Source: Perkinsus olseni
Taxonomy: Eukaryota > Perkinsozoa > Perkinsida > Perkinsidae
DNA length: 64,000 nucleotides
Direction of reading: 5' to 3'
Assembly: GCA_013115135.1 (NCBI GenBank)
Contig: JABANP010000109.1
Span: 62,001 to 126,000, forward strand
A program made the position numbers and the translations under genes. Under the pieces are notes generated by a model, which saw nothing but the letters and a program-made list of their open reading frames with translations, was not told where the DNA came from and did not search any database. Within the stretch, counting starts at the first letter, position 1, and every line of letters starts with the position of its first letter. Below are positions 1 to 63,563 of the stretch, piece by piece.

Positions 1-789
1 TGAACATCAGATGTTCACATGATAGTCACTGCACGCTCAACTAAGATAGTGATGAGCCTACAGAGTCTGATCTCTCCCCGCCGGAGAGTGCCCGAGTTTG
101 CTCAACTTGAACGGCATTCTTGCTCTTGCAAGATCTCTACGTGTCCCGACGTTAGATCTACCCAGACTCCCGGCCAGTACGTAATTGACGACACGACTTC
201 AGGTCATCCGATTAGGTGCTATCGTGAGTCTTGCGTTGACAGAGCTGGTTAGTGGGGAGTGTCTCCCATTTCCCGGTGGAGTGGTAGGCCTGGAACCGGT
301 GTGCTTTCCACCGACGTGGCGGGTTCAGCATGACTGGCGGGGAGCGCTTCTTTGCTAAAAAAACTGTCCGTCAGGAGGATGAATTTGAGAGCATTGGCTC
401 CGAATGTTCATCTATGCCCCCCATACGGATGATGCCGGTAAGGGCAATGATCAGGCGATCAACTGGAGTGTCGGCATTAGTTGAAAGCAACGCAGACTGG
501 ATACTACTGGAGGAAATGACAGCTAGCCTAGATGAGCTTAGCTCAGTGAGCTAGGGAAACTTGAGAAAGTCCACGTGAAATCAGCGATTGGTTAGCAGCG
601 ATGAAACGGTCTCTAGCGGAACATTAGAAGGCGAAACGCTTTGTGAACGCATGCTGCACTGAGTGTAACTGTGACAGCTGAACTGTCGCGTTTCCAAACA
701 CTGATGAGAACAACTCAGCCCCCTCCCACTCAACACGACAGACTGGTCGTGCCTGATATTTGGTTCACGAGAATCCAGGCCCTCCTTCC
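1..789. other. Intergenic, no gene recognised
   Basis: Only short shadow reading frames are present and none resembles a known family. One imperfect copy of the 7-1-7-6 palindromic module lies at 532-552 (7-mer ATGAGCT, centre T, one mismatch in the inverted arm). Confidence 0.5.
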
Positions 790-797
790 GTATTTGA

Positions 798-1116
798 CAG
801 GGTGGCCCAGCGGGGAAGAATGCTATTCTTTCTTACCGGGAATTCCGGAAATTCCCGGGAAGAAAGAATGCTCAATATTCCCTGGAAGAATGGTTGAGAT
901 TCTTCCCGGGTATTTAGGTGCTTCATTCCAATGGTTTGACCTGAGGAAGCATCGAGTACGGGCGGATATGCGCGCCGAAGGCGCGCGAAAAAATTTGGGG
1001 GGCTTGTTTCAATGGGGAAGAATGCATTCTTTCTTCCCGGCTATATTCCCGGGAATTCCCGGAAATTCCCGGGAATGGGAAGAATGATCCATTCTTCCCA
1101 CTTTTGGGCCACCCTG
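798..1116. mobile_element. hAT-like MITE, 319 bp
   Basis: The two ends are inverted copies of CAGGGTGGCCCA, at 798 and ending at 1116. The element is flanked by a perfect 8-bp target-site duplication GTATTTGA (790-797 and 1117-1124). An 8-bp duplication and a YARNG-type terminus (CAGGG) are hallmarks of the hAT superfamily. The interior has no coding capacity and is built of internal inverted repeats rich in GGGAATTCCCGG-like and GGGAAGAATG motifs, so it is non-autonomous. The perfect duplication suggests a fairly recent insertion. Confidence 0.85.
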
Positions 1117-3966: not shown

Positions 3967-3987
3967 CCTCGGGACCCGAGGCTCGGG
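3967..3987 (+). repeat. 7-1-7-6 palindromic module (perfect)
   Basis: The 7-mer CCTCGGG is followed by A, then its exact reverse complement, then its last six bases CTCGGG. All 13 constrained positions match. Confidence 0.9.
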
Positions 3988-4148
3988 TGCCTCTCCAAGA
4001 ACTCGCCATTTGATGGCTAGTAGCTAGCTATCCCCTCCTCAAGTGAATGGACTGAATCAAGTGACTCTCTGCATGCATTTATACTCTCACTATGAGCAAG
4101 TGGGGAGGAATAGACAGGCACTGTCTGAAGGAGGCAGATGCTGTTCGG

Positions 4149-4169
4149 GACGAGAGTCTCGTCACGAGA
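4149..4169 (+). repeat. 7-1-7-6 palindromic module (perfect)
   Basis: 7-mer GACGAGA, centre G, exact reverse complement, then ACGAGA. Confidence 0.9.
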
Positions 4170-4365
4170 CAGTCGTCACGGAGGAATCACTGATCCGCGA
4201 ACTTACGTGCGTGTGTGCTCGCGTTTTTTCGAGCCTGCTCAACGCTGACGGGTTCAGCTCTAATCAGAACTTCTCCTTTTGGAAAGTGAGAATTTCCTGG
4301 CAAACCAGCGAACAGGGCCCATACTTATCATGGAGGGATCAGGACCAGGCAGGTCCAACCTGATC

Positions 4366-4386
4366 ATCAGGTCACCTGATTCAGGA
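4366..4386 (+). repeat. 7-1-7-6 module, 14 nt longer than duplicate copy
   Basis: 7-mer ATCAGGT, centre C, exact reverse complement, then TCAGGA (one mismatch). The matching stretch of the duplicate near 17430 is 14 nt shorter and contains only a single GTCAGGT. Confidence 0.85.
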
Positions 4387-4423
4387 GCAGACGACAACCT
4401 CGCAGTTCATGCACCCGCGTGCA

Positions 4424-4444
4424 TTCCTCCGAGGAATTTCCTCG
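4424..4444 (-). repeat. 7-1-7-6 palindromic module (perfect)
   Basis: Read on the minus strand: 7-mer CGAGGAA, centre A, exact reverse complement, then GAGGAA. A mutated version of the same module is visible at about 17511-17533 in the duplicate copy, so this insertion predates the duplication. Confidence 0.85.
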
Positions 4445-4559: not shown

Positions 4560-5680
4560 ATGATTCTCAAGCCCGAGCTTTCTGTTGCCTTTGGCTTCCT
4601 CAGCCTTCTAGTTGGGTCATGCGGAGAGAAGCTTGTTAGGATGACTATATCCCCTCAGAAGACTACAGCCAGTGCGACCTCTGCTGAACTGATGGCTGAT
4701 CTTTAGGTCGACGATCAATAAATCACCGTCCTGGTGGACACCGGAAGTCCGTATACTTTTTTTCGTAGAGAAGCAGTGGTATGAGAGGACTCATCCAGGA
4801 GGCTGCGCCGAACTCAAGTTTAAGTGTTATGATTGTGACCCATCGTCGTGTCACGAAGGCCCCACGAAGACGCACGAATTCTTCGGTGGTTCGCAAGTGA
4901 CGGTCTTCCAACATTCCGGGACAGTTGACTTCGGCACCGCAAGTGCGGACGGCATCGATTTCGGGCTGGTTTTTGGTTTTTTTTTAACGAAAGCCCCTTC
5001 GCCGCCCTCGGACTGTCGCCTCCGAGTGCGAAATCCAAGCCGTATGTCCCTCTTATCTATCAGCTACTGGCCAAGCCCAAGAGTCAACGGCTTATTGAAG
5101 AAAGTGTCTTTTCGGTGTACCTCAAAACTGGAAAGGACCCCAGCGGTGAGCTCATACTGGGTGGCGGAGACAAGAGCAAATACGCCGGCCCTCTGAAATA
5201 TGTGAAAGTTGTGAACAAGGAGGAGCAGTCTATAATGGTAACGGACCTGGGCATCGGTGATGCCTCTGAGAATCGCATTAAAGTTTCACAAGCGGGGTAT
5301 TTCGACACGGCCCGTGTCACACGGGAACTAATGTCATCGAGATGCCCGATAAGTTCAAGACGCCGGTTCTCCAGTTGCTCCGAACCGCTGGCAAGAAACC
5401 TGTAACAATCACAGAGAGCGCTGGTTTCTACGAGCTCTCTTGCGGAGACATTGAGAACTTACCCTCGATAACCTTCTGCCTGAAAGAAGACTCCCTGCTC
5501 CCTAAGAAGGTGTCGCTCGAGATACCGCCAGCCAGCTATGTGACTGCAGACGTGGACTCCTCCAGCACCCTGGCTATCGAATTCGCAGGATCGTGGCTTC
5601 TGGGGTTGCCCACACTCATTGGCAACTACCATCTATACGATTGGGACAAATCTCGCATTGGTGTTGCCAAGGTGAGATGA
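4560..5680 (+). pseudogene. Aspartic protease pseudogene (duplication copy I)
   Basis: This is a pepsin-like aspartic protease relic, recognised by alignment with the copy at 17.6 kb. It starts with ATG 4560 and a signal peptide (MILKPELSVAFGFLSLLVG), and the first active-site motif VDTGSPYTFF is intact. Breaks: two in-frame stops in the segment matching ASLKVDGQDVTV (TAG near 4705, TAA near 4717), an extra T in the T-run near 4760, a scrambled T-run near 4980, and a 14-nt palindromic insertion at 5304-5324 that destroys the second DTG motif. The last 112 residues (5342-5680, ending in ...KSRIGVAKVR) remain open and show the normal C-terminal lobe. Confidence 0.85.
5304..5324 (+). repeat. 7-1-7-6 module inserted in protease active site
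   Basis: 7-mer GACACGG, centre C, exact reverse complement, then ACACGG. The intact paralogue at 18400 reads straight through GACACGGGAAC, so the insertion is exactly 14 nt. It falls inside the codons of the second catalytic DTGT motif. Confidence 0.95.
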
Positions 5681-5707
5681 TGTTATTTTTCTTGGTGAAG
5701 CTCGGCT

Positions 5708-5728
5708 CATAGAGACTCTATGATAGAG
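5708..5728 (+). repeat. 7-1-7-6 module absent from duplicate copy
   Basis: 7-mer CATAGAG, centre A, exact reverse complement, then ATAGAG. The duplicate at 18780-18800 reads CTCATAGAGTTATGC, exactly 14 nt shorter. Confidence 0.95.
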
Positions 5729-5874
5729 TTATGCAGAGCTATCATGATGTTTCATTCATCAGGATTTCGTCATAGTCCCTCTTGTCAGGATCACTCGATG
5801 ATAAAATGATATATCTTGCCCACCTCGTTGAACATATTTCGAGTTTAACCTTTTTCGGACAGTAGTGTTCGTCA

Positions 5875-5895
5875 ATGCTGCGGCAGCATTGCTGC
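5875..5895 (+). repeat. 7-1-7-6 palindromic module (perfect)
   Basis: 7-mer ATGCTGC, centre G, exact reverse complement, then TGCTGC. The duplicate has GTCAATGCTG and then a transposon (18943) at the same point, with no palindrome. Confidence 0.9.
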
Positions 5896-7510
5896 CTTGA
5901 AAGTGGACTCCGTAAGTTTCAAGTTGAAACCCCGCGTGCGATCGAGGGAGCCTTGCTTGACAAATTTTAGCGAGGCCGTTGAGAACTTGGCCCGGTTGGG
6001 TCCCAACCATCGCAGACATCAGGAAATCCCAACCCTTGGGATGTCTGAGAGATTTCAACTCTCGGAATCCAGACTCTGTGCATGGGAGAATTCTCGTGCG
6101 CATGGGAACCACACCTTTGAACACACATGCACACTTAATTTCGAGCGGAGTTTCAAATTCCTCAGTCTATGCCGCCAAAAACCACCTGATCGCACTGTCA
6201 ATGCATGCACAGCTAACTGAATCAGCCCAATTCTCTCCCGGAGACTAAGCTCAAGCGAGTTACTTGAAGTAGCTTACTTCACAGACTGTGAATCTCAGTC
6301 CTTCCCGCTTTGCGTTGACTATGAACAATAGCGGAGCGAGTTGCTTTTGGCAACAGTCTGCTGCCAACAGAGCCCTAGCGGCTAGGGCGAGGGCCTAGCC
6401 TAAGTTATAGCCAGGCTACGGTAGCCTGAGTAAAGTTATAGCCGTCCTTCCCATTGTTCGAGAGTATTCTGGTAGACTACTGGTACTAATCTCAGACGAG
6501 AATGAGCGACCTTGCATTATGGCCCTGGCCATTGGCTCAAAGTCTGGACTGGATGGGACTCAAGACGTGCGCCTCCCATCCAAATTCTTTTGTAAAAGGC
6601 TTTCACTGAGAGCCACAGGCTAGTTTGTAAGCAGGGCCGTGACTGACCCGAGTGACACAAAGGTGTGTCGCGAGCTAGCAGCGCTGCATCGTATCATGGA
6701 GACCCCATGATGCAGTAGCCATGCATCACAATATGATGATCATATAGTCACTATATGATGACAACTCTCGACTCCCCATTATATCATAGTAAGGCGTCGA
6801 GAGTTTTCTTCTAGTAAGGGGAAGGCAAGCTTGAGTCCGGTGCGATCGGTACAACGGTTGTACAACAATCTCAATCTCTTGGAGTTCATGACATTGTGAG
6901 AGAAGAAAATACTCACTTGACCCTCGTTCGCGTTCCCGGGCTGAGGCAAACGCATGAGCCTGGTGTTCTCCGTAAGAATGAAGTGTTTCCTCGGGGAGAT
7001 GTCCTGACACGTCGTGTAACAGTGTAATACACGATGATACGCGAGAAACCCGCAATTACGATGCAGTCGGGTGCCAACTTGTAACAAGACACGAAAATCA
7101 CAAGAGCAGATCAAAAACGACAAATGAAGGAATCAAAATGGTACGTCTAAATTCCTGTCTTCGTTCCATTGATCAATTTTTTCAGTGGCTCGCATGGCTT
7201 CATGCGTCATAAACCCGCCGAAAGTTTCGGCCCGAAACCTTCCACACCCCGACCGTAGGGGTGGATGGGGATAGTCGTGAAATTTCGCAGCAGATGAATG
7301 CAGTTGGATGCAGGATTCGCGAAATGATTATCGATTGGGGTTTTGATGGAGGCGAGGGGATTCACGTCGGCAAAGTCTGTCCATATTTCAGAGGTACTGC
7401 CTACAGCCTTATAATGTAACCCATATAGGAAGAAATTGAACCAGCCTCTACCATCAGGACCCTCCCTGAAAAACCAAATCAGTACAAGGATCGAATGGAC
7501 GGTGTCCATG
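5896..7510. other. Intergenic, decayed duplication and palindromic modules
   Basis: No gene is supported. Modules lie at 6259-6279 and 6278-6298 (overlapping by two bases; 7-mers GTTACTT and TTCACAG) and at 6407-6427 on the minus strand (AGGCTAC), each with one mismatch. 6703-6770 is rich in ATGATCATATAG-type inverted repeats. Confidence 0.5.
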
Positions 7511-13389: not shown

Positions 13390-13410
13390 GTAGGCGACGC
13401 CTACTAGGCG
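13390..13410 (+). repeat. 7-1-7-6 palindromic module (perfect)
   Basis: 7-mer GTAGGCG, centre A, exact reverse complement, then TAGGCG. Confidence 0.9.
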
Positions 13411-14322
13411 TAGCTTGTCTAATCAATTACTCAGGTGCAATGACCTTGACGAATATCCCCTGAGCGTCCATATGCGTGATTTCTTGACCTTCATGTGCTC
13501 TCGGGTCTCGGACCTGACGAGGTAACGCAGTGTTGCCAGGGAACGAAGCTCTGACCGTAGCCCCCGAGCACGCTCTGAGGACCCTTCATGCCACTTTCGT
13601 GGATTTGCCAAATTGTTTACTTCTGGTCTCGCTCGTAGAGCCACGGCTGAGACGAGCCCGGGTATGAGAGCGAATTGAGCCAAGGCTACCATGGATGCAG
13701 AGACAACCGACAGGAGGAAAAGAATGACGAAAGGGAAGGGCGGTCACTATTAAGAGCCCTACAGTCCGGTCACTGGCGACGCCGAAACCGCCACGGGCAA
13801 CGGAATTCGGTTTTCGTGCGCCTCGTTTTTATTGCCAATGTGATCGATCGAGTCGAATCGATTCTACGGTTGGTCACTGGCTCATTCCGAGGCGCGAAAT
13901 CAGCCTGGTCATGCCGGTATAAAGGCATGTCGATGGTCTTGGACCATCGGAGCACCCACAAGCAACTGGGAAGAACTGCTGCCACGACTATCGTGACGAT
14001 AGTACGGTTGGGAAGTTCTCTATCGAAGGAGCATCAAGATGACTGATGAGAAGACTCTCCCTCAGGATGTCTCCATTCGGACTGAACGGTTCAGTCGAAA
14101 ACAGAGATTGTTGATATGTTCAAGATATAGGTTTTCCAGGTCAAGTATCACTGCGCCGCAGTGACTGCGGTGAACTGATTCGGTTCCAATTCACACACGG
14201 AAACTTACACGACCAATCACCTCCACTGGTGGTCCACCAGTGACCGACCGTCTTCCAGGACTCCTGAGTCAAGAGTCCTGAGTCAGGACTCCTGACTCAG
14301 AGCAGGTGACCCCATTATCGCG

Positions 14323-14343
14323 TGTGAGCCTCACACTGTGAGG
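14323..14343 (-). repeat. 7-1-7-6 palindromic module (perfect)
   Basis: Read on the minus strand: 7-mer CCTCACA, centre G, exact reverse complement, then CTCACA. Confidence 0.9.
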
Positions 14344-15002: not shown

Positions 15003-16746
15003 TCATCGGGAGCTTCTTTGAGCGATCCCAACTTGACTCAGGTCAGGTTGGAACTCAAAGTAGTTCCCAATGATCGAACTACCGGGTAGCGTCCAAGAAT
15101 CATCATCGTCTTGTTTCTTGATGATTAGGTAACAGGAACCCTGGTCATTCCTGGCATAGCTTAGGTAACTCAGCTTCAACGGAACGGTCCCCTTCGGGCC
15201 TAGTCCGAAAACCAGGGGTGGCAGCGTAGGCATGTATCGACAAGAGAAAGTCCAGATGTTATCGTCCGAGTCAAACTCGATGTCAACGGTCGTGCCTGCA
15301 GCCTTGTTAGCCTGAGCTTTGATATCTCTTATCATAGCGTCATAGTAGAGCTGCGAGACGTACAAAAAATTGGTACCGGTATCGAGGAGGAGGTCCTCGT
15401 TGATGCCGATAGTTATATGCGCACCACCCACTTGTAGAGTACCAAGATTAACGAAATATTCGCCGAGTGAGCTTTCGGTGAACTTAACGAACTGGAGTGG
15501 ATGCTTATATAAGGGAGGATCACCTCCACCCAGAATCAGGGTGTGCACAATGTGCACAATGTGCACTGCACATAGATTTCCACGGCGGAAATTTCATTGA
15601 AATTTCCGAAGAGTATTTCGGAAATTTCCGGCGAAGGCGGAAATTTCAAAAAAATATGAAATTCGCGAATGCTCGCTGTTCCAGCCTTATTCGCCGGATT
15701 TGCAAAGTAACGTAGTAACGTGTCCAGCATGATATGCTAATGCGTCGACGTTTCAAACCTTCAAACGTGGAAGCTTCGACCGGTCAAATTGAAAGCCCCT
15801 CAAACATAGAAGTAAAGGATGTGCTGGGCACGCGCCCAGATGATCGATTTGATCGCACCTAATAGACTATCGCTAATAGATTATTACTATTACTAATAGT
15901 TTATCAGTATTATTAGGAGACTGACATACTGATGCATCAAGTGCGATGTGACAACGTCACAGTGACATAGCCGGAGAGGTTTCAAGAAAATCAAGGGGGA
16001 AATTCGGTTCGCTGAGCGAAGCGAAGGGACATTTTTCCCCATTTCGACGGAAACGGAAATTTCAAGAAATTTCCTCTGAGGACTGGCTGAAATTTCCGAC
16101 GGCTCGGAAATTTCCTGGATGTGTACACCCTGCCTCCGATTTACCGAATTCTGGGCCAGAATTAGACCACCACTGAAGGAGGACTGGCCACACGAAGACA
16201 GGTAGAGAGCGAAGGTTGTGCTTCCGATTACACCGCGTGACCGTAACTGCTTCACCAGGGAGGGGAAATACTTATCGCCCTGATCTGGCGCGAGACCCAA
16301 TGAGCTTATTGGCGAGCTATCCGTAGGCGAGGGGTCCTGATTGATCATCAGTCCGAAAGTAAGTTCAAGCGACGGTAGGTAGCTTCCAAACAACTTGGCC
16401 TTGTGCTGGAACACTCTCACTTTGACGTTATCTTCATAGACGATAGTCTTTGTTGGCTGACGTGGCGTACAGGGCTGCTGGCATTGGTAGCAACCAGCCG
16501 GCAGAGCACGGCAGCTTTGTTGGGTCGCCGATTCGTACCAATCTTCCAGACGAAATGGAAGTAGTCGGACCCAGTGTCAATCAGAGCAATGACTTTGTTT
16601 TGGCGCTCATCGGTGGAGATAGAAAATAGCCCATAGCCATAGGGAGGCAGGTCACGGTAGACGGCGGGAAAGCTGATGATACGTTGCTGCCCTTCGGCAA
16701 ACATGACAGCTGCCAGCGCATTAATTATGCTCCTGAGTCGACCCAT
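15003..16746 (-). pseudogene. Aspartic protease gene broken by a transposon
   Basis: This pepsin-like protease is closest in sequence to the copies at 1.3 and 20.4 kb. ATG 16746 gives a signal peptide (MGRLRSIINALAAVMF), and VIALIDTGSDYF is the first active site. A one-base deletion at about 16552 (AAGGAT reduced to AAGAT in the FVWKDWYE segment) shifts the frame, which resumes at 16420. The gene is then interrupted after ...SSFSGGLIL by a 596-bp MITE (15537-16132) and resumes at about 15536 with LGGGDPPLY, the second site LLDTGTNFLY and an intact C-terminus. Confidence 0.85.
15537..16132. mobile_element. MITE, CAGGGTG-type ends, inside protease gene
   Basis: The ends are inverted copies of CAGGGTGTGCACA (15537) and CAGGGTGTACACA (reverse strand, ending 16132). 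The interior repeats GGAAATTTCC-like units in both orientations and has no gene. Termini resemble the hAT MITE at 798-1116 (CAGGGTG). A perfect target duplication is not immediately flanking: CCCAGAAT (15529-15536) is matched 7 of 8 by GCCAGAAT at 16155-16162, leaving 22 extra bases next to the right end. The host protein sequence proves this is an insertion. Confidence 0.8.
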
Positions 16747-21037: not shown

Positions 21038-21185
21038 TGAGTGTTACACTCAGAGTGATTTACTCAGAGTGTATATACTCTGTAGTACAGAGTCTGTACT
21101 TCCAGATAGTGTGTGACACACTGTGTGTCCATGAATCATGGACCATGATGGACAGTTCATCCTCGTCCACAACGTGGACTCCACA
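21038..21185 (+). repeat. Cluster of five 7-1-7-6 palindromic modules
   Basis: Within 148 bp there are modules at 21038 (TGAGTGT, one mismatch), 21078 (CTCTGTA, perfect), 21108 (AGTGTGT, perfect), 21128 (TCCATGA, perfect, sharing one base with the previous module) and 21165 (GTCCACA, one mismatch). Centres are T, G, G, A and A. About 70% of the stretch is module sequence. Confidence 0.9.
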
Positions 21186-21879: not shown

Positions 21880-21900
21880 CAAGAGAGTCTCTTGAAGAGA
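21880..21900 (+). repeat. 7-1-7-6 palindromic module (perfect)
   Basis: 7-mer CAAGAGA, centre G, exact reverse complement, then AAGAGA. Confidence 0.9.
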
Positions 21901-22314
21901 CTATAATTAAATCATTCATAAATGGGAAACGCTAGGCTAAGATATGGGGACAGATATCTTGTGTGCTGAGTGGTCAGGGACACTGGCCACCAGCCACACA
22001 GCATCTCCCTTCCCCGGTGTGTTATCGTATATCCATTTGTCTGGTGCGTGTTCTGACCGTAGGGCGGTCACGGTGCTAGTAATTGGTATCTGTATACAGT
22101 CTGGTCCTTGAGTTGGTTGATAATGTTTGGGCTAACATTCCCTTTCTAAAAGCGTACAGGGATCGGCCGTCGTCCAGTCCCTTGACTCCAGTAACTGGTA
22201 GCCGACTACCCGAGCAGAAAGTTCACCCCGGCGAGTGTGGCCGCGGAGCAGCCTTTCTCAGGCTCGGTCTAACCAGGCTCCTAGAGACTAGCTCTTTCAA
22301 AAAACAACACCCCA

Positions 22315-22335
22315 GTTTCACGGTGAAACTTTCAC
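22315..22335 (+). repeat. 7-1-7-6 palindromic module (perfect)
   Basis: 7-mer GTTTCAC, centre G, exact reverse complement, then TTTCAC. Confidence 0.9.
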
Positions 22336-22925
22336 CGTCTGGAATTCGTTCCTTGCTATCTCATTGTCACCAACGACTCAGCTCAGCTTTGGTGTAGCGT
22401 CTCATCAGACCTCGTTATCTGGATAGGATTACAAGCGAAATATAGCGAACAAGGTCTGAGTATCATCGCAAGCCCTATCAGTCAGTTCGAGTGGTATTTC
22501 TCGTACGAAAAATGGGGATCATCATCGTTCTCATCACGTTCCTAATCAGTAGGCCGCAGCGGCGTGAGGCTCACGCCGCTGTGGACTGTGACAAAAACCC
22601 AGAGTGGGTATGGGCCAGACAGGAACTCACGAGATACGCTGGAAAGTGAGAAGGGGGACTCTATAACGGCGTTATGATGACTCGGGTATCATCGCGGGTA
22701 TCATCGATGATATCATCGCGGCAACGGCTTCACTCCCTACGCCTTTTTCTTCCATTTCACTACACTGAGTGAGAGAAGGAGGCGTAACCTACGGTCTGGC
22801 CGATCGGCTTCATCCGCCGTGTATTTCTGAACCTGGTGCGACTAAGCCAGTCTCACCTCGACATTAGCATTGGTGAAGTTCGTCATTTGGCGTTCCTTTG
22901 ATAACGAACCTTGACAGAGCGACTC

Positions 22926-22946
22926 CGGGGCGGCGCCCCGGGGGCG
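22926..22946 (+). repeat. 7-1-7-6 palindromic module (perfect)
   Basis: 7-mer CGGGGCG, centre G, exact reverse complement, then GGGGCG. Confidence 0.9.
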
Positions 22947-23103
22947 CAGGCACATGACTCACTACTGGTGCCCCATGCGACTCGTTGGTAGAAGATAAAT
23001 GGGCTACTGTAGCTGCTTAACTTGGTTTCAAGTTGCTCTTCAGCTTGAAAGAAGCGTGTGAATCTAGCGACTCGAGATACGTTCGGCCGACCCCACAGGA
23101 TAC

Positions 23104-23124
23104 GTGGACGACGTCCACTGGACG
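23104..23124 (+). repeat. 7-1-7-6 palindromic module (perfect)
   Basis: 7-mer GTGGACG, centre A, exact reverse complement, then TGGACG. Confidence 0.9.
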
Positions 23125-24099
23125 TGTCAGATACCTCGACCGTCCGGATCTCATAGCGCCGGTTCTCCAGTTCGGAGGGAACATAGACCCGGCTGTACTA
23201 TCGAACAGTATAGACTGCCGAGCCGGCGTCACTTCACTATCTCTCCTCATCGCGCTCTACACACTCCCACCGCCGAAACTCCCTCAAGCTGCCGAGTCAC
23301 TCATGAAAGGACTTGAGGGTGCTGGAGCTGTGAGTATACACAGCCTCAAGTCCTGTGGGTAAGCAAAAGCGTCCCTGCCCTCTCAGCTCCTGGAGACCGA
23401 GTGGCCTCTACTGTCGTTGCTCTCCACTGTTCATAGGATCGTACTGCAGGACCGAACAGAGGGCGACTGCCCGTTTGAGGTGGGTGACAGAAAGCCTATT
23501 TCTGTGACCTGTCTCACTATCCTGATCTCTCGGTGTTGAGCGAGATCAGCGGCCTCGGACTATCTAACATGGAAATGGACGCGGAGCGCCATCATTATCA
23601 TCATATAAGACAAAGCTGAGCCCTCCGCTGAGCGGAGTTCGCTTCCCGTCGAATGCCTCGGTTCCAGGGGCCTATTAGTGCCGCAATCGAACGTATGACC
23701 GAAGTCGGAGCTGTGCTTCCTACTCCCTACATAGTGCGGCATCTGGTCAGCCTTGAAAGCCGGCGGGATTGTAGGATACTGTAAGATACGACCGAGCCCC
23801 TGCTGACGTTCCCGAATGTACCGCAGCTCTCCGAGGGCCGCTCATTTCTCTTCTCGTCAGCCGCGCGACTCTGACCGTCCACTATCACCGGGCGAAGCGA
23901 CTACTGGAGACTAGTCTGCTCGAGGGTATCTTCCGGTACTCTCACATACGTGCGGAAGACCAGGAGGCTTTCATCGAAGACGCATTGGGACCGTCCTGGA
24001 AGGCCGTGGACCATGTCCCGCAACTTCAAAGCGCCCAGAGTATCATAACTGAGGTACCCAATCATCCAGAATGACCATCGACTGTTTTCCATTAGTTTG

Positions 24100-25345: not shown

Positions 25346-26455
25346 GACCTCAGCGGGAGCATCGAACTCAGTACATCCGCACCTACAACCAGTCTGTGGT
25401 CTGTGTCTTACTGCACATTGAAGTCTTGAGTCTACTTCACCCTCAGTATCCATGACGCAAGTAGAGACTCTACTGTAGAGTTGTATTGGGACTCCCAATT
25501 TAGGAGGAATATCGTGTTCCGCAGAAAAACCGACTTCCGTCGCACTTCTGTTGGCACCAGATAAGCGGGCTGTTCGATAGACCTTTCCTGACCTCCGCTC
25601 CCGGAGCCTCCGCTGCGGAGGGCTGAGTCGACCCCAGCTCGCATTCCCCGTCACTACAGCCACAATGACTGTGCGATACAGTCTGTACCTGTTGCTAACT
25701 CCTGGGTCAGGACTCCTGGCTAGGTCTGGCATTGAACTTTATCGCACTACCGCGACCTTCTACCAGCCTTCGGCGCGCAAAAGTTCGGAACTCGTTAGCC
25801 TCACTTGAGGTACGGGTCAGAAGTTCTGACTCAGAACTGCGCAGTTCCCCTTGTCCGCTCATAAGCCCCGCGGAGTAATTTCGCCCATGGCGATCCTCCT
25901 GCGTGAGATGACCGTCAAGAATTTCGTGGCGCGTGACGCTCTCAAGGACTTCGGCTCCTTGGCTCTTGAGTGGTAACCTCCAGCGGCAGAAGTCCTGCCA
26001 TTGTGGTAGTGCCCAGAATGGAACCTGCGTCACATGAATAGGAGGTAGCCGCTCTACGTACTGAACTAAAATCACCGGGCTCGTGCGAAGTTCGAATCTC
26101 GTCGTGAGCGGAGCGCAGCGGTGCACGATTCACGCTCTAGAAATGCTCGTGAGGATCGAACGTTCCTGTAATTTTTTCCTAGGATCGTTACCGTGGCGTT
26201 CCAGGAGCTTGTTTTGTCACAGAACTTTCGTGAACACGATTGCAGCAACGCTTTTGAAGAAGCAGCAACGCTCTTCTTGGGTACGAACTTGCGTCTATCG
26301 AACGCTCCGTATTAATTTTCGGGCGCGCGCGATTGTCACTGCCTCGGCTTCTCCACAGCTTAGGTTGATTAAAAGTTAGACGCCGTCGACCTGCAGTCTA
26401 TCACCGCTTTGATCAGTTTATAGTGTTTAGGCCCTCTCCACCTCATTCACCCGCC
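25346..26455. other. Intergenic
   Basis: No gene is recognised. Palindromic modules lie at 25601-25621 (minus strand, CCTCCGC, one mismatch) and 25816-25836 (GTCAGAA, perfect). The stretch before 26456 is the upstream region of the first RpiB gene. Confidence 0.45.
25816..25836 (+). repeat. 7-1-7-6 palindromic module (perfect)
   Basis: 7-mer GTCAGAA, centre G, exact reverse complement, then TCAGAA. Confidence 0.9.
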
Positions 26456-36545: not shown

Positions 36546-36657
36546 TAGGGAATGGTTAAAAGGATTCCTATTAGAGGTATCTATAAAAAAGAATCAGCTA
36601 TGGTGAAGATATCTCCAGTTCCTGTCCAGTGTCGACATCAGCTCCTGGTTACTGTAC

Positions 36658-36678
36658 ATACGGACCGTATGATACGGT
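36658..36678 (-). repeat. 7-1-7-6 palindromic module (perfect)
   Basis: Read on the minus strand: 7-mer ACCGTAT, centre C, exact reverse complement, then CCGTAT. The matching place in duplication copy A (about 30904-30920) has no palindrome. Confidence 0.9.
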
Positions 36679-37241: not shown

Positions 37242-37706
37242 CTGAGCTCGAGCGAGCTGATGATTGTGTGATGAGTTTGAGACGTATGATGATGATACGG
37301 GTGTGGGAACTGTTGTACCGCACTGTACTCGTCCGTAGGCCGCTCATCTGCGATTATTATTTTTTTCTTTCGTCATCTAGGAGTGTGGGTGCAGTTCGAT
37401 CGGTGCATAGAGCCGAGTAGATTCGGCAGGCACGATGCGAACTGCCCCGTGGTAGAGCGGTTACTCTTTGCCCAGGGAGGGATTGTCGCGTTGTGACAAC
37501 AGAGTGCGAACAGCAGCAGCACGAGACGGTCTGCAGTTCGTACGCGGGTGACGGATGGCAAGTGGGGTCCCCACTGTGGGGATGAGGAATTTATTCGAGG
37601 AAGAATTGCAACCAACATCTCCCGATTGGTAACTTCATAACGAGAAGTGATGGAAATATTCTATTTGAAAAACTTCTCAAGTTTTCGTTACATCAACTTG
37701 GCGAGT

Positions 37707-48000: not shown

Positions 48001-51000
48001 TTTATGTGTGTCTTTTAGAGGTGGGCGACAGTACGCCAGTACGGTTGCCCAACTCTAGTGTCTTTTGTAGCCTTAAATATTTCTCGACATCTCAGGTGTC
48101 CACTCGCCCCTCACTGTGTAGCGGCACATGTCGTATTGGAGAAACGGTGAGAGCGAATTTCCTGGCGCGCGGTGATTCCACTAGTTTTGTCCTCAGGAGC
48201 GCAACAGAATTCGGCTGTGCTCCTCCTGTTGTCGTTGATTCGTCTACGGCCTTTTGGATGGGTATATACGAAAATGGTGGAGGTGGTTGCGGAGGGAAGA
48301 GCGCGCTGGTACTGCGGGTTTAGGGGCGGTAGGGGCCTCGACCAGCGTAGAGGTTCTCATGGGACCTGCGGCACTCCTCCCTCCTGTCCGTCGAGTATTC
48401 ACGCCAGCCGTTCCCGCTATTGGCGCGAGACGTGAACTGGCTGGTCGTTGGTTGCGTCTTAGTTTTTGACTCTATCGCAGCCTCGATCCTCTTCCCACTC
48501 AGTTTCTCTGTTCGTTGCGCCTTTAGTCGTCGTAGAATTTCTTTGCGAAGGAAGTATTTTTTGGTGGGTTTTTTTTTCCGGAATGCTTCCTCTGGTATTG
48601 ATGTGTTCGACTGTGTGTTCTTAACCGGCGCCTTGTTTATTAATCATATATTTTTACTATTTTATATATAATATCACGCAAGTTATCGATAATATATATT
48701 ATCTCCAGGGACTTTTATTTGTTACCAATATAATATGGAAATGAAACCATGGGCATAAAATATGAATATTATATAGTATTAATAAATAATGATAGCGCTT
48801 AGCTGGCTTGTATTCATTCTCGTCAGCCGCGGCCTCGACGCCTGAGAGACGGTTGTGGCCGCGTTTGTAGCATAGATATGAATTTGGATGGTTATTGGAG
48901 GTCAATGGCAATCAAGGACACGACCGTCGCTGTTATCGTGGCATAATAATAGGCATAATTTAGCGAGAATCATTTGAACAATCAGTAGTACTGTATAATT
49001 TACAGTGTATATAATATATACAGTGCTACTGATTATCCTAATATATATTATATGTAGCGCCTTCTTCGGAAAGTCCATTATCACAGAACATGATGCACCC
49101 AGCCATGCAAGACAACAAGTCTACTTAATCTGTCTTATTCTGCGAGCTGGGGCTAGTACTGAGCGGTCAGACTTCAACTATATAGCGCTTTAGGAAACCA
49201 ACACCATGTCGTTATGTATTAGTGAGACGATGCGGGGGATGGATGGTATGAGCCAGCGTCTCCAAGCGACTGTCTTCGATGCCATAGCTCGATCTCTCGA
49301 CTTGAAAAGTCGCAAGAACAGGATGAGGAGGTTCTCTATTGTTAGGTGACCATGCTCCAGTAGACGTCCTGGAGAAGGCTCGTGTGATGGAAATATCCCT
49401 CATTGAAGGCAAGCAAATATGGCGGGTAGAAGGAGAGGGTTGTGGCCAGGAGATCACGTCAGGAGACGAACTACACGTGAGGTTGGGCGGGGCGCTCGGA
49501 GGTGTTGGTTGTTGAGCGGTTCCACTCGAACTAGCATGCAGAGGCCTGGCTGGGTCTGAATCGGCGCTGTGGGGGCGATAGTTACTGAGGCCTTAACGCT
49601 GGATGAAGAATGTCTATCGATGACTTAGAGAAGTCTTTGAGCTTCTTAGATTTTTATCGGAAACCCAAGAAGAACGTGTTCCCAGTTTTTTCGCTCGGAA
49701 CTAAATTTCTGAGGCGTTAATGGAATTTGTGCTAAGTATCATTCTGAGTTCAATATTAGGCGGAAGTAAGAATAACATCAGACCTGTTTGTAATCAATAG
49801 CATTATCGGGAAATGTGTTCTTCAACTGTGGAGGAGCAGGAATGGTTTTTGACAGACTCTGCGTGGCTGCATATTACCTTTGGTTGATCACGCATGATCT
49901 TTCACAAGTTTGTAGATGATATCTCCAAAATCGATCACGTGATCGATTCAGGTATCTTATCAGCGTTATGGTCCACGTAACATAGCCACGGGCGAGGTCA
50001 CTGAGGTATCAAGTCAAGGGTCGAGAATGATGGTGGTTTTGTCCATGAGGGATGACGGAATGCCGGACATCCCTCCCACTCATGGCGACATCGAGGACCT
50101 CGAGCGCGTCGCGACTGATGCGAACAAAAGTGTTTACGTCAATTCCAAGCGGTTGTTCAAGCTCACGAGAGTCGACTGGGGCAGTGCTGGCCAGACCAAG
50201 CGGAATCGATCCCTCCTGCTGGAGCTCGCTCACGATAGCAGTGGCAGGGGATGGGCGGCTATTTTGGCGGGAGCAGCGAAAGTGCAACTGCCGAGGCTAC
50301 GGCCGTGGGTGGCGGTCCCGGTGCCATACGAAATCAGACCGGCGTTCGAGACGCTGAATGAGGGACAGAAAAGGGCTGTGTGCGCAGCGCTAGAGCTAGT
50401 TCGTCAGGGTGGCTCAGAATTGACTGGAGATCGATGGGCTCTGCCGGTTTGTGGATACCCTGGAACGGGGAAGTCGAGTATGTTGGCTGTGCTGTTGCTC
50501 GGGTTGAGGTATGGCAGTGAAAGAAGAGTACTGCTGGTCAGCCATACTCATACGGCTGTTGATAATCTGCTATTGAAAGCGAAGGAGTTGGCGGGAAAGA
50601 ACAACTTGAAGGACTTCGAGTAGGTTGGGAGTGAGCTGGTTTATCACTGATAAATTATCAGTTTCACGCTCGTGGGGTGCCGTTGTGGCTGTAGAAAAGT
50701 GTAGCTGAAAAAGCGAAAAATTAACTTCTCTGTTGCAAGTGTTGATACTTGTGTGAGGATTGTGCTTATTTTCGTCTCAAGAACGTAACGCCTGGCGCTG
50801 AAGCCCTCGGAAACTCTTAGAATATTTACGGAATACTACCTCTATGAATGAACATTGCATTGCTGTTTCTACTATAACAAATGCTGTTCATGGTGGGAAT
50901 CATAGCCGTACGGACGTTTTATTTTTGCATGTGCTACGCTCGCTGACGTTCTCTCTGCGTCGCTCCGTTCAGCTTCGTCCGCCTGGGTCGGTCCTCATCG

Positions 51001-54000
51001 ACCTCTGTCAAGCCTGAGCTGGCCGAGCACTACCCTCCGTCAGGATGGCCGTCGGTAGAGAGTATCTCAGATTTTCTCCGCACGAGGGTGAGCAGGTGAA
51101 GCAGGAGGAATCTTTTTTTCTGTCCGTTGCCAGGGCGGTCGACTTGTGGCGTGCACAGCTCTGGCGTGCCACAATGCATTGCTTTGGCCGCCGAAACCGC
51201 CGAATGAGGAGGACGTCCCCACACAGCCGCCCAGAGTTAATTCGAGCCAGCCGAAGGTGCGGATCGGAATTTCCTCTTTTTGCTGCTATGATGAGTTACG
51301 GTATCAGATTCTGGATAAAGGATTGCCACAGCCGCCCGATTTTGATATAGTATTGGTGGATGAAGCGGGTCAAGTAAGATTATCGGGGATTTTTCCGGAC
51401 ATTGTCGACCGTAATTCTCGTATGCAATGATCTTGTAAAACCGCCCTCCGTTTCGACGCGCACCCGACCCTCTGTAAGGGTTGCTACTCAACGGAACCTG
51501 GGGCTCAGGATGGATCCTGGGGATCGGGAGTAGGGTTCTTCAGAAGAACTTCTTCTTCACCTATTCAAGGTGTAACTACGACGAAGGTCTTCTTTCTATA
51601 CTGTATGTATCACTCACTCTTGCTTACGTAAGAGCGACCACTGGCCGTTTGTTTTCGATTGTTAGGACTAATTCCGGGATCGACCCGGTCTGTTTTCAGA
51701 ACACCTTGTGTAACTAGGACTCTATCTTCCGTGAATTTTTCTTGAAGCCTTTGGGCGTTCCAAGTGAGCATGACAGACGCTCTCTGTCTGAGAGTCTCTG
51801 AAGTGGAGATAACAAAAATCGAGTTATTGAGCTCTCAATATTCGAGCCTCCGACACTGAGAGACTCGCTCGAGCCCGGTCAGGATAGCCGCGAAAATGAG
51901 CTGTCTGATTCTTGTCCTCTGCGAGACGCTCTTCGGTCCATGTTATGGGCGTATCGGTATGGGGACGGCGACGCGGGATCGAGGCACCTGCTCAGCGAGA
52001 GCCACGATCTCTACGAGGGCTCCATAGTGGGCTCAGTGTCGGCCTGTCCTCTATTGTCCATTGCAGCGGCCGAGTGCCGAGCAAGTATTCCGCGTAGTGT
52101 TGTGGCATTTCCGCAATTGGCAAGCCTGGGTCTCACACAGCTTGGATACTGCGGCGGTGGATTCTCTTGTTGGGAGTGGGAAGAATGTTTCGGTGGCTCC
52201 GGGGCCCGTCTACGTAGCCCTTTTTCGAGTACGCACCTCGGAGACCTTGATCATTCTGGGCACGTTATTATTGTCCCCGAGCTTCTCGTAAAGCGAAAGC
52301 CGAAATGGAGCGGTTGAGATCTATTCCGACTCGCCTTTCCTTAAGCGGTGTTTCGATGTCGCGGCATTACATACGTTTGGTTTTCGTTGCTAGAATTCTG
52401 TCTAGAAGGGGGAACAGGTCGGCTGCCCTTCTCATCGAGAACGGTGTTCGTCAGCTGAGTGGGTAAGGGAGCGGTTGCTGTGGCCACTGGCCACTGGGTG
52501 ACTCAGTCACCGTGACTGTGGAGGAGTCATTCAAGGGATGTCAGCAAGGCGGTGTCAGCAGATGTTTGGTTGCTGGACAGTCCAGAAAGGCAAGAGGTGT
52601 TCGGTAGGTGAGTTGTGTATTCACTCTCGGTATGTCTTGACCGACCCTCTACGTGTTCGGCAAGCAATGGGTCCGACACGGACGATATTCTCCCGCAAGT
52701 GTTCAAGAAGGCCTCTCAAGTCAACGACCAGAGTACCTAAGTTACTCTAGGAGCCATGGCTCAACGATGATGGCTGATGCTCCACGATTCAATCGTCCTT
52801 GGTATGCTTATTACGGATAATGTCGAAGATATCGTCGAAGGGTTGAAATCCTCTGAAGATCTGAACGGCTCACGGCGATCGCCACCTGTGCTTCGAGCGG
52901 ACTCTACCAAGAGCAGAAACGCATCGCCTGAGTGGTCGTTAGTTGTTCATTGTCAACATCGTCTTGTTGTGGTGCTCTCTGAAGCTGGCTACTCGAGGAG
53001 CTATTCTAGTAGGAGATCAATACCAGTTGCCGCCTGTCGTTAAGGACAGGTGAGAAGAGGGCGCTTGTTATTAGCTGTAGAAAATATTATTCGCTGTTGT
53101 GCTAGAAAATGGTTTCACCCACGCTGTATGTTCGCTTCAGGAAGTGCCGCGATGAGGGCATGTCGGAGACCCTCTTCGCTCGATGCGCCCGCGACATGGC
53201 CTCGATAGAGCTGACGGCCCAGTACAGGATGTGCCGTGGTATACAGAGATTCGTTAATGAGCTCTTTTACGAGGGGAAGCTGAAATGTGGCAGTCGGGAA
53301 GTTGAGGACGCCAAGATGCCGGTAAAGAATCTCTGTGCTGTCACGTGTATCGATTCTCACTTCGTTCGCGATATGAGGGAAGCGAACAACCGGTGGCTAA
53401 AGTCCTAAGACGTTGGTCATGAATTAGTCGTTCAACTGGACGTTGTAAATTCTCTCTATGATTGGATTGATCGAACTGAAAGTCGGTCGTATCATCAGTG
53501 TTATTGTAGAGTGAATAAGGTAGGTCGAAGATCCCATTTAGAACTCTGTTCATTCGCATACTGTGTGCAAACCCCACTAGCGTATTATTTATTCATTGCT
53601 CATGCGAGAGAGACAGTTGCGCAGTCACAGACAATTCTACACTGTATTTTATCGAGACAATTTTGCTGCTTGGCGGCTCTTCCAGGGTTAATTCTAGCAG
53701 CTCGTGAAGCATCGCGCATTCGTCCTGTGGGCCTATGAGGTCTTCACGACTTTGCAAAACTAGTCATCGAATGGTCCCTCTCAGCGCGTCTTCACGACAG
53801 CCCTGGCGGGTCCCTGGATAGAGGAGATGTGGAATCCCGAGCAACCGGTTGTGATGATAGATGTTAGTCAATGGCGATCAGCTGCTAACGAGAAGTTCAT
53901 AGCGGCAGCGGATGAGAAAGAGGATGGCAGGGTTTACAGTCGAGCGGAGGCCCAGGTGACGTGACGCCCTAATCTCCCACTTTCTGACTGTCTGCCGTCC

Positions 54001-59143: not shown

Positions 59144-60459
59144 TGATTTCTGTTACTTTCATGTAGCATATGCCTATCCTTTCTATGAAGAGAAACTTCT
59201 GCGTTTGTGCCGGTGTTGAGCACTTCTGGAGAGTTCAGTGACATGACTCCACGACAAGTCGCACAGCGCACATCTATAGTGCTCTTAAGTAGTGTACGGC
59301 GACGCAAGGGATGGCGCCTGTGACCTTCATGGGAGCTTCGGCTCACTTACAGTGTGCTTGCGCTCTTAGACCGCTTGCAGTGTTGAGAATCTCTACTTGA
59401 GATATGTGAATGAAAGGATCTTTGATGCAATTAATGCATCGTACAGTTTCAATAACAGCTGTCTTCAGCAATTATTTCTTCTGCTACTATCATGATGCCC
59501 CCGACTGATGATGCGATATGATTCATGCGATTGCATGTGGATCTGTGAGCAACTCTCGTCCTCTCATGCGAGTGGTGATCCCCGCCGCTTGTCCCTCAGA
59601 ACTGCGTGACAATCGTAGCATCTGTGCAAGCGCGAACCTAGCCACTTCTTTGTGACCCAATCGCTGCGTCGAACAAATCTGAGATATGGGTAAAGTGCGA
59701 TCACGCTGTTCACGGACATCGTACATATCAAATTACATCGATGGGAGCCTCGCTCCCGTGTTGTGAGAATGGCAGCCGTAACGGCTGAGCCGTTGCTCAG
59801 TTGCCACACGGACAGTGTGACAACAGTACCGATCAGGGGCAGACTTGCTTGTATGAGATGCTCATTGCTCACAATAAATCGTTCCGGTGACGACACTATG
59901 TTCCCCGAGCAGATGACTCTGGACAAGGTGCTTGCCCACTACGCCTAGCAGGCTTTCTGTTGTCGTGGTCGGCTGTCCCTCGCCACGCAGTGTATTGTGA
60001 TATTGTCTCACTGCTAGGCGTAAACGATCTATCATTCAACTGTGGATGGTTCATTGAGATTGGATAATCGACTGGGGTCTCTGTTAAAGGTTCTCTGTTC
60101 GATTCGATTGAGTAATTCGATTGAGGTCTCTGTTCGATTCGATTGGTAATTCGATTGAGGTCTCTGTTCGATTCGATTGGTAATTCGATTGAGGTCTCTG
60201 TTCTCAAAAGTTAACCTCTCCGTAAAACCACTTGGCGAGTCGCGACGATGTTGTGTGATTGCTGCCACCATAGAGCCGTTCCCACCTGTGAAACGCCTCA
60301 CGCGCTAGTACTGTAATCGTAAGTTATAGGTTTGAAACGGCTTAACCAAGTCTTTCTTGTGTTAAGTCAGTAAGTCCAATAGCACTCCAGTACTCAACAG
60401 GTTCCCATTCGAGACAGTTCTCTCACCTCAGCACGTTCGGTGCGACGTATACCAATCCT
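59144..60459. other. Intergenic with tandem repeat
   Basis: No gene is recognised apart from the tandem array at 60098-60203. Confidence 0.45.
60098..60203. repeat. Tandem repeat, 34-35 bp x 3
   Basis: Three head-to-tail units start GTTCGATTCGATTG and contain AATTCGATTGAGGTCTCT. The first unit is one base longer. A partial fourth unit lies just upstream. Confidence 0.85.
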
Positions 60460-62277
60460 ATGGTCAAAGTAACGACTCCAGCGAAAGAGGAAGAGAGCCT
60501 TAGTTCCGAGGCGACAGCCGACGTCGGTGACAGCAACAACGGCTGTATGGTTCGACAACAGCTAGCGTCGCTCGGGTTTGGAGGCGATAAGGCAAAGGCT
60601 CGCAGGAGGTGACGCAAGTGTTTGAGAAACATCATGTATCTTCAGGATAATTTTCGTAGCAATCAAACTCGAGCGATCGAATATACTCTGCAACGGCTAG
60701 CATCATTCTCAATCAGTCAACAGCCACCTCTGACTCTGTGACGATGCTCGAAGAAACCTGTCCCAGAGACTCGCAGAGCACTGGTCATGCTTCAAGTACT
60801 GGCTGAACGGTCCTTCACAGTGAACGCCGAAATCGTCATTCCGTTGTACCCGGCAGTCGGCCTCGTCAGGGTTTCGAAAAGGACAGTGTGGGTATGCAGA
60901 GAACTACGGCAAGACGCCCTCGCAGCAGCTTTGAGTCATCCCACCAGAAGTGAGACCCCGAGCATAGTACTAGTCAACAAGCTACAGAAGGTCCCGGAGT
61001 TTGGAAGCAAATGTGGACTGGTCACGGCGGTGCGGAGGAGCCTTGAATCACGATCAGCAGGGAAGGAGTGCAGCTGGTTGCCCGAAACGTACATTTTGCC
61101 TGAGGTAATGACACACAAAGTGTATTATTGGCGTGATGACAGCTGGCACCCTTTGTGCTGAGAGACGTGGCGAATGTACCATGTACAGCACGGTGTCCAG
61201 AAAAAGCTTCTATCGGGGGATGATCCACAATTGCCTCGCGAAGATCGGGAACTTTTTTTGGGAGAACAGATCGGCTTAAGCGGCAGTGAAGAAGTCGACA
61301 GAAGAGACGTGCTGGATCGTAAAGCCTGCGTCATTGAACAAAGGCATGGGCATAAAAAGTGCGCAGAGTGCTTCGCATTGCGAGCTGATAAACATTTCTG
61401 ATGAACATTCAACTCTGCCATTGCCTTTAGTTCATTTGCCTGATGGTTAGCAGCCAGGTCACTAGCGCACAACAATACCTTCAGATATTCGATCGGAAGA
61501 GTTCACTGGAATATTTGAGAAGATATTCACAGGGCCGATCGCCCAAGGGGAGTCATTCAACGGTGTATGAGCCAACCACTTCTTGTGAATGGCTGTAAAT
61601 GCGACCTTCGAGTGTACCTTCTGATAACGAGGGCAGACCCCTTGAAGGTGGGAAACTCGAACAGCACGATAGACTCTGGAGTCCAGAGTCTGGACTAGCA
61701 TCTTTTTGTTGTGGTGTAGTAAAATGATTCACTGTGAGTCATCCACTGCAATTCTTCCACGGCACTATTGGAATTACCTCGCCCGCAGGCCTAATACCTA
61801 GCATCAACCTCGCCTGTTGAGGGAGGGCGACGCTGAATGGTGGTTCAAATCCTGGTACTGTTGTGAGTTTGAACCCATCGTGATGGAGATGGCGACCGTC
61901 ACATTAGATGGAGCTCGCAGTTCCTTAGGCAGGCAAGGCTACTCCTCACGCTTGTCATTCGCTCGAGTGACATTAGCAGGTCGGTAGTGCAGCGAAAAGC
62001 TGGCACCATTATCGGAGGAGAATTCTTCGGATACGACGTTCTCCCTGGAGCTGGTCTGAGGCCGTACCTCCTCGAGTTCAACTCCAATCCAGCGATCCTC
62101 ACCAATACTGATGTCCTTCAAGAAGTGGGTGCCTCTTCTAAGCCTACGGTCTCTTCATTTTTTCCCTCGCTTTCGGGCAATGCCATGTTGTTTTTCGTAT
62201 ATTGCCGAGTAGATTTTCCTGGGGTCCAATTTGAAAAGACTTTTCTGACTTTGTGCGCTATTCTACTCAACGACTAG
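60460..62277 (+). CDS. Tubulin-tyrosine-ligase-like protein, several exons
   Basis: Probable exons: 60460-60609 (acidic start, then CMVRQQLASLGFGGDKAKARR), about 60840-61106 (AVGLVRVSKRTVWVC...KECSWLPETYILPE, the family's LP-TYxLP element), about 61200-61400, and about 61985-62130 (GTIIGGEFFGYDVLPGAGLRPYLLEFNSNPAIL). The last peptide matches the C-terminal ATP-grasp motif of TTL/TTLL enzymes (FE-FGxD...LLExNxxP), which add Tyr, Glu or Gly to tubulin tails. The central K-x-RG motifs were not located. A palindromic module lies at 61674-61694 between exons. Confidence 0.6.
61674..61694 (+). repeat. 7-1-7-6 palindromic module (perfect)
   Basis: 7-mer CTCTGGA, centre G, exact reverse complement, then TCTGGA. 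It lies in an apparent intron of the TTL-like gene. Confidence 0.9.
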
Positions 62278-63563
62278 GATAGGATGGACTGAAGATATAA
62301 CGATGAGCAGGGAAATCCTAGGAATACAATGGCTCTGGGAAAAGAGATGTGACACCTATTCCAAGGAATTATGTGATGAGACTCTCCCATTGGGACAGTG
62401 CACTTGGGGCCTTGGGCTTCAAGAAGTTGAAGTGGAATTTCGGCAGGGAGGCGGTGTCATTATAGGTTGATTTCATGACGAACCTGCTGTTAAGACAATG
62501 TCTGGGGATTTATTTTCATACATAGTGTATGATACATTATCCCGCCATGAGTGGCGGTGGTTGCGAACTCCCGTGGCGGATCACCGAACCTTCGAGATTT
62601 CGATCGCTTCAACGTGAGAGTAACCTGAATACGACGGGATGGAGTCATCCCGGATGGCTAGTGCTTGGTTCGGCTGGTCGGTATGGAATAGTACGATCGC
62701 AGGGTAGATATGGGCGACAGTACGGGTACGGTCTAGTACGGAGTACGGTACGAGTACGGCTCCGTACCCGTACTTCCCGTCGCAGCGGTTCCCACGTACC
62801 GTACTACATAGTACGCCGTACTTTAAGTACGGCGTAATTTTATGATCAAATTTTGATCCGCGTATGCGTTGTTTAATATATTCAATACGCACTAGATCTC
62901 CGTACCCGTACTAGGTTGGCAGTTTGAAACGTACTCCGTATCGTACATTCCTCGACCCCAGTACGGTTGCCCAGCTCTATCGCAGGGGTCTATTGTTCGT
63001 ATCTTATGGTACCTACCAGCGATTTCAATTAGGTGATCCCTCCCCTTATAAAGAAAGGTGCCCAACTGATCGAGAGCGATAATCATGTCGGAGCGAGCCA
63101 GTTGTCTCCCAATTTTTGGCATCTCATAGTTGATGACCAGAGAGGCTACGTTTTCAAGCGGCGTGGCTGAAGCTCTGTTTGACTTGTTGTGTTGCGTGCA
63201 ATGCGAACCTCGTCTTCCACGGAGGAAACTGAACATCGTTACACAAAAAAGAATAAACCTCTCACAGAGAAAGACCGCCAGGCCGTTACGGACTGTCCGT
63301 AACGTGGCGGTTTCACGCATTGCATGACAGACGTGTAGCAGATCTGCGCAGATAGACGCGTATGGAGTTACGATCTAATGTAAGTTAGTGTTGCTCGTTC
63401 TGCCACAGGTGACGGATAAAGTCAAGCAGTCTGACTGAAAACCCTCAAGATTCTTGAGTCAAGGAACGAAGTTTGACTCAAACTTCGTTTGTTGTGGCGG
63501 AAGATAGGAGTATCATATAACATGTCAAGACCCAGGGATCCTGGGCCTCAGTTCGATCCTGGG
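62278..63563. other. Intergenic
   Basis: It contains the hAT-type element at 62705-62979, one module (63444-63464, CTCAAGA, one mismatch) and a 25-bp hairpin with 12-bp arms and one central base (63465-63489). No gene seen. Confidence 0.5.
62705..62979. mobile_element. hAT-type MITE, 275 bp
   Basis: Inverted ends TAGATATGGGCGACAGTACG and, reversed, TAGAGCTGGGCAACCGTACT. A perfect 8-bp target duplication TCGCAGGG lies at 62697-62704 and 62980-62987. The interior repeats GTACGG/CCGTAC words in both orientations and has no gene. The terminus fits the hAT YARNG rule. Confidence 0.9.

Follow-up and report, generated by a model that had tools for sequence, protein, structure and literature searches.

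The closest described relatives of the sequence unit treated here are the joints left by hairpin-forming DNA cutting and by transposon excision. The coding joints of V(D)J recombination carry P nucleotides. The transposon mPing is a PIF/Harbinger element with a 3-bp target duplication. The unit was found in Perkinsus olseni, whose genus is a parasite of shellfish, in a 64,000-base stretch of contig JABANP010000109.1 (positions 62,001 to 126,000, forward strand; "the window" below) that belongs to a 61.5-Mb, 968-contig genome. It is 22 bp long and is built from an 8-mer Q: the first seven bases of Q, the reverse complement of Q, and the last seven bases of Q (Q1-7 + rc(Q) + Q2-8). The change from Q to the unit is a net gain of 14 bp. 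Each unit is probably a scar left on the excision of a hAT-type transposon that had an 8-bp target duplication; two flank hairpins would have been rejoined over rc(Q). Like V(D)J coding joints, such scars would involve flank hairpins, off-centre opening and inverted additions, but V(D)J recombination has no target duplication on both sides, and hence no fixed inverted word over which to anneal.

According to PMC6900584, cutting of the hAT and V(D)J type frees a 3' end on the flank; this end attacks the opposite strand, and the flank is thereby closed into a hairpin. For Ac/Ds, the footprints from S. cerevisiae, C. albicans and Arabidopsis are taken from PMC5873905, through which the yeast and plant originals are known. 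In the yeast scars reported there, the palindrome has as its centre the complement of the base next to the element. The Perkinsus units are like the Ac/Ds footprints of that source in that the inserted bases form a palindrome around the complement of the bordering base and that they point to hairpin intermediates; the frequent microhomology at Ac/Ds joints and the arms of up to 20 nt in S. cerevisiae (PMC5873905) are counted as a likeness too. The Ac/Ds joints it describes are many and mostly short, whereas in Perkinsus a single 14-bp product that contains the whole 8-nt inverted duplication is dominant. mPing excision, according to PMC4561436, is repaired through microhomology of the target duplication. 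The likeness is that the target duplication supplies the homology sealing the break, hence one dominant product. In mPing, however, the cut is staggered and the repair precise, whereas here the homology would be the inverted 8-bp word exposed by the hairpins, and a 14-bp scar stays behind.

The introner elements of Amoebophrya, as presented in PMC7789003, share with the units a parasite genome of the dinoflagellate lineage, a combination of inverted and direct repeats and a transposon-like spread, but they are introns with 3-5 nt direct repeats, whereas the Perkinsus unit is a fixed 14-bp gain of DNA. The uniform 14-bp form of the scar is apparently unreported in the literature searched. Among titles and the first parts of abstracts no report of this uniform scar or of a Perkinsus excision scar was found; single examples may exist.

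Geometry and target motif of the unit

A full scan of the window detected 28 perfect units and 16 further places with one mismatch over the 22 bp. Ten Markov simulations of the window contained none. The initial annotation described a 7-mer, one free base, the reverse complement of the 7-mer and its last six bases, and counted 21 perfect and 17 one-mismatch cases. All of these exist where they had been placed. Those assigned to the minus strand are the same objects seen from the other side, because a unit of the form Q1-7 + rc(Q) + Q2-8 at position p on the plus strand can also be read at p+1 on the minus strand. The perfect cases are real, but their total was too low, with the units at 7217, 14149, 14275, 15552, 25460, 37561 and 59773 missing. 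Likewise the fixed 7-1-7-6 geometry is real, but its natural unit is an 8-mer, the target-site duplication, and the description by 7-mers is replaced.

The peak is sharp. When word length k and offset c were varied in the window, the cell (8,1) held 28 places, (7,1), (9,1) and (8,0) held none and (8,2) held one; (10,3) held five, and short words were at chance level (e.g. 34 at (6,3)). A larger set of 329,623 bp, composed of the window, 20 pieces, 21 transposase loci and two further pieces, contains 147 units. After deduplication 134 remain at (8,1), and every other cell with k of 8-10 and an offset of 0-2 holds between zero and two. The comparison with other arm and spacer lengths and with simulated sequence, proposed earlier as a check, thus found no other over-representation. 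A possible second geometry, (7,2), was raised in the other pieces (11), but all 12 of its places in the set are one site within a repeated 319-bp element. A reversed-sequence control of the grid (132 and 3) was disregarded as not valid because the pattern is symmetric under reversal.

It is extremely improbable that the units reflect chance, an assembly artefact or a repeat family. The repeat-rich setting is the only point in favour of this. Against it stand the empty simulations, the 138 distinct contexts and diverse words in which the unit occurs, and the comparison of copies from different contigs, some of which share a unit while others lack it. As the initial annotation held, the unit is a geometry rather than a family of repeats.

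The words do share a weak consensus, although none had been recognised before. The 138 distinct Q words carry the symmetric motif GTYSSRAC (G1 in 61, T2 in 60, A7 in 58 and C8 in 51 of them). This motif is like the target motifs of the hAT element hobo, GTNCGNAC and an older version, NTNNNNAN, both tabulated in PMC3276498, as the target motif of a hAT element would be. The geometry has two further marks of a hAT footprint: only words of k=8 peak and empty copies hold Q once, and the inverted bases, which in such footprints centre on the base complementary to the one next to the element, occur at offset 1 only.

These properties also bear on replication template switching, in which a fork would jump to the other strand, copy eight bases back and return. 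Such switching yields short inverted copies with no need of a transposon. It does not account, however, for a word fixed at 8 bases, an offset fixed at 1 or a symmetric target motif, and the variable length of inverted copy expected of template-switch mutation was not seen, so this explanation is highly improbable.

Sister copies with and without units

In alignments of copies, sister copies without a unit carry Q once. One comparison is that of window 21911-23400 with copy L050, which differ by 14 substitutions and four gaps. Three of the four gaps correspond to 14-bp units, of which L050 lacks one and the window lacks two; the remaining gap, of 15 bp, is a 12-1-12 palindrome. The unit at 22315..22336 (Q=GTTTCACC) is empty in this 99%-identical copy, and those at 22926..22947 (Q=CGGGGCGC) and 23104..23125 (Q=GTGGACGT) are also in L050. 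So are the units at 21078..21099 (Q=CTCTGTAC) and 21108..21129 (Q=AGTGTGTC), as well as, with one substitution, the one at 21128..21149 (Q=TCCATGAT). Upstream of the stretch 21911-23400, L050 and the window also differ by about 128 and about 434 bp, both longer in the window; neither difference has an 8-bp duplication, and they were ruled out as hAT-like elements.

Window 3900-5927 holds six units. Two are shared with copy L051, at 3967..3988 (Q=CCTCGGGT) and 4423..4444 (Q=ATTCCTCG). Three are clean differences: L051 is empty at 5304..5325 (Q=GACACGGG), 5708..5729 (Q=CATAGAGT) and 5875..5896 (Q=ATGCTGCC). The sixth, at 4149..4170 (Q=GACGAGAC), is ambiguous, since L051 is 14 bp shorter but retains the 7-1-7 palindrome and is not a clean empty site. 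A third copy, within the window itself near 18.4 and 18.8 kb, is empty at 5304 and 5708, and the units there are therefore gains.

The same signal is visible in a survey of indels that took in alignments with 85% identity or more; these total 121,326 aligned bases and contain 5,804 substitutions. Counts between copies are 81 at 1 bp, 25 at 2 bp, 36 at 3 bp and only 3-9 each at 6-9 bp, and they climb again to 26 at 14 bp. Units with at most one mismatch make up 22 of these 26; the other four are not units under the rule applied, and one of them resembles a decayed unit. Indels of 12 bp (14) and 13 bp (7) are mostly one variable spot within a hAT-like element of the CAGGGTGG family. In the compared copies the units are thus a main source of longer indels, and a gain of 14 bp shifts the reading frame.

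All 28 units listed in this text are perfect by the full scan, with strand left unassigned. The remaining ones in the first half of the window lie at 7217..7238 (Q=GCCGAAAC), 13390..13411 (Q=GTAGGCGT), 14149..14170 (Q=CACTGCGG), 14275..14296 (Q=GTCCTGAC), 14322..14343 (Q=GTGTGAGG), 15552..15573 (Q=GTGCACAT; overlapped by a second hairpin-like palindrome with its centre at 15550), 21880..21901 (Q=CAAGAGAC), 25460..25481 (Q=AGTAGAGT) and 25816..25837 (Q=GTCAGAAC). The second half contains those at 36657..36678 (Q=CATACGGT), 37561..37582 (Q=AGTGGGGA), 50640..50661 (Q=TTTATCAG), 51535..51556 (Q=GTTCTTCT), 52497..52518 (Q=GGTGACTG), 59773..59794 (Q=CAGCCGTT) and 61674..61695 (Q=CTCTGGAC).

Two places have a more complex structure. 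At 21563-21597 the 14-bp unit (AACACCCGGGGTGT) is repeated in tandem, as though one scar had been hit again or amplified. At 532, compared with L011 near 8202, the window copy has a second 14-bp gain nested inside an older scar.

Proposed excision route and candidate sources

The scars would arise as follows. Insertion of the element would give Q-element-Q with its 8-bp target duplication, and the element would later cut itself out. The transposase would place its nick one base into the flank; the 3' end so released would attack the opposite strand, which would leave a hairpin on the left flank (...Q1-7-rc(Q)...) and another on the right (...rc(Q)-Q2-8...). This flank-hairpin chemistry is established for hAT elements, and the one-base offset suggests it in Perkinsus. 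Both hairpins would then be opened several bases away from the tip, and the single strands would anneal over their common rc(Q); with flaps trimmed and gaps filled, the product would be Q1-7 + rc(Q) + Q2-8. Openings that jointly expose more than 8 inverted bases would give an identical product wherever the nicks fall, and one length would dominate because any two such openings share part of rc(Q). The element would move on while its scars remain and accumulate.

A dedicated mechanism, with nothing more specific, had been proposed initially from the expectation of a sharp peak. The peak is there, but the geometry is not unrelated to known processes: it is the product expected if two hAT-type flank hairpins are joined over the duplication. 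That this lineage seals hAT breaks by a dedicated route, with two opened hairpins annealed over the inverted target duplication so that almost all visible jumps leave one and the same self-identifying 14-bp barcode, and that its genome is a ledger of about 10,000 or more past transpositions, each giving its exact target word and datable by decay, is possible but doubtful. In the boldest form of this idea the transpososome may keep hold of the two hairpins and open them where the duplication ends, or may act on unoccupied sites.

Hairpin opening predicts base-centred palindromes of other lengths, and these are in excess. Outside the units, 111 with arms of at least 8 were counted, whereas even-centred ones number 10 and one simulation gave 5; the corresponding figures for arms of 10 or more are 39, 4 and 0 (identical palindromes were counted once, and a few are microsatellites or decayed units). 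The 12-1-12 palindrome absent from L050, at 22557..22581, is likely a one-hairpin scar with a 15-bp gain, and the base at its centre is complementary to the bordering one in the empty copy. Two other base-centred palindromes, at 31549-31585 (arms of 18 nt) and 32699-32737 (19 nt), are likely one-hairpin scars of the same origin.

The hairpin model also predicts rarer joints with the same 8-bp word. A scan for double hairpins with this word and offset but other joints (centre distances of 8-40, up to 4 unexplained bases) returned 12 candidates, whereas eight simulations yielded 2 in total. The candidates include one GAA microsatellite and one that overlaps a unit, and eight of them have 1-3 unexplained bases. 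Alternative joints are therefore rare next to the 143 standard ones, and they display the variable hairpin opening of hAT footprints. The clearest example is L044:85, where the left hairpin appears to have been opened 11 nt out and the right one 9 nt out, with a joint over 2 nt; L033, the empty copy of this site, carries the predicted word TGGACTGG. In the window, a likely double-hairpin scar with another joint lies at 6373..6400 (left 9 nt, right 4 nt, 1 filler base; Q=CCCTAGCC).

Among 81 classes of short scars a few are slightly raised against one simulation, such as 3+0 (9 against 1) and 2+1 (7 against 3). Plain tandem 6-mers are also raised (301 against 69 in one simulation), an excess that is taken to result from simple repeats.

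Both hAT elements and a hAT transposase occur in the same genome as the units. Matches to the hAT dimerisation domain were found in at least 21 places. Across 75% of its length a hAT transposase of this genome is 96% identical to a protein of Perkinsus olseni, and across 71% it is 69% identical to one of P. chesapeaki. Two element families with 8-bp duplications are present in the window, CAGGGTGG and TAGAG. A 319-bp hAT-like element with CAGGGTGGCCCA ends at 798..1116, a member of the CAGGGTGG family, is flanked by the duplication GTATTTGA (790-797 and 1117-1124). The CAGGGTGG family has the most copies of any family in the set, with perfect duplications in all 13. A 42-bp hAT-like element with TAGAG ends lies at 48016..48057 between perfect copies of GTGTCTTT (48008-48015 and 48058-48065); 42 bp is unusually small for a hAT-type element. 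A 275-bp hAT-like element with TAGAG/TAGAT ends, at 62705..62979, is flanked by TCGCAGGG (62697-62704 and 62980-62987). It has at least 34 further copies; among 20 retrieved with their ends, 13 have a perfect 8-bp duplication, six have one mismatch and one has none. TAGAG ends also flank transposase domains in L030 and L032. The 11 distinct perfect duplication words of the TAGAG family score like Q when compared with random 8-mers of the window (P 0.0083), and the addition of four more from the set gives P 0.0006.

Several observations weigh against a hAT origin by hairpin rejoining. The first concerns the CAGGGTGG family, whose 13 duplication words do not fit the Q motif (P 0.14), and this element was ruled out as the scar source. 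TAGAG appears to be the better candidate source, because its duplications score like Q and those of CAGGGTGG do not. The second is the classic short 1+1-nt scar of Ac type, which is not raised (4 seen against 9 in one simulation). Such scars are common elsewhere and are not obligatory for the hAT footprint class, and their scarcity fits a hairpin opened several bases from its tip. The third comes from the repair proteins of the genome, in which matches to Ku (one weak exon match), DRMBL, Mre11 and the PolA family were found. Loss of end joining had been considered as the cause of annealing; with Ku and DRMBL matches present, it does not explain it.

The fourth is the absence of any element at a scar site in the sister copies (few copies per site); a search of the coordinates of paralog matches for elements at the same site likewise found none. 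This leaves room for a domesticated hAT-like transposase that makes paired hairpins at unoccupied 8-bp targets, with repair writing the unit in the absence of any element. Scars also far outnumber elements in the compared stretches: about 1.5 kb that contains no element has three units and a palindromic scar. However, elements with the right duplications and ends exist, and the excess of scars needs no new process, because each jump of a cut-and-paste element adds one scar and leaves the number of elements unchanged. Such a transposon-free process is very unlikely.

Duplications of 8 bp are not unique to hAT elements, and the scars could have been made by another superfamily that has them (P, KDZ/Zisupton, Merlin or others). 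The P-element target motif GTCCGGAC, in the same table of PMC3276498 as hobo, likewise resembles the Q motif (GTNNNNAC), which is the last of the points against a hAT source. Flank hairpins offset by one base are, in the sources consulted on cutting, a known behaviour of hAT and V(D)J-type systems, and hAT genes and elements are present in the genome, where no search was made for the other superfamilies. A source outside hAT is very unlikely, and excision of a hAT-type element is the reading kept below.

Genome scale and remaining features

Five pieces not centred on the CAGGGTGG element contain 8 units in 50,000 bp. Unit density ranges from 0.16 to 0.45 per kb, which extrapolates to roughly 10,000 to 27,000 units genome-wide from a sample that is not random. 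If the hAT scar reading is true, thousands of past jumps would be recorded in legible form in the genome. The exit of a transposon is usually hard to see later, and a 22-bp scan spots the scar without a reference. Scars of this kind would allow cut-and-paste jumps to be counted, placed and dated long after the loss of the element, and would let the target preference of the transposase be read. The mix of products (8-nt annealed joints versus short inverted additions) would report the position of the hairpin nick in non-model eukaryotes.

The window also contains a Dna2-like exon, whose match to P. marinus (74% over 34%) is among four matches. Long open frames with reverse transcriptase domains lie at 7813-10710 and 32780-34606, and the former additionally has an integrase zinc-binding domain. 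Contig C801 is 92-100% identical over several stretches to the contig of the window (C12), and 100% identical at window 62300-63500. From sequence likeness, C801 may be either a recent segmental copy or the other haplotype.

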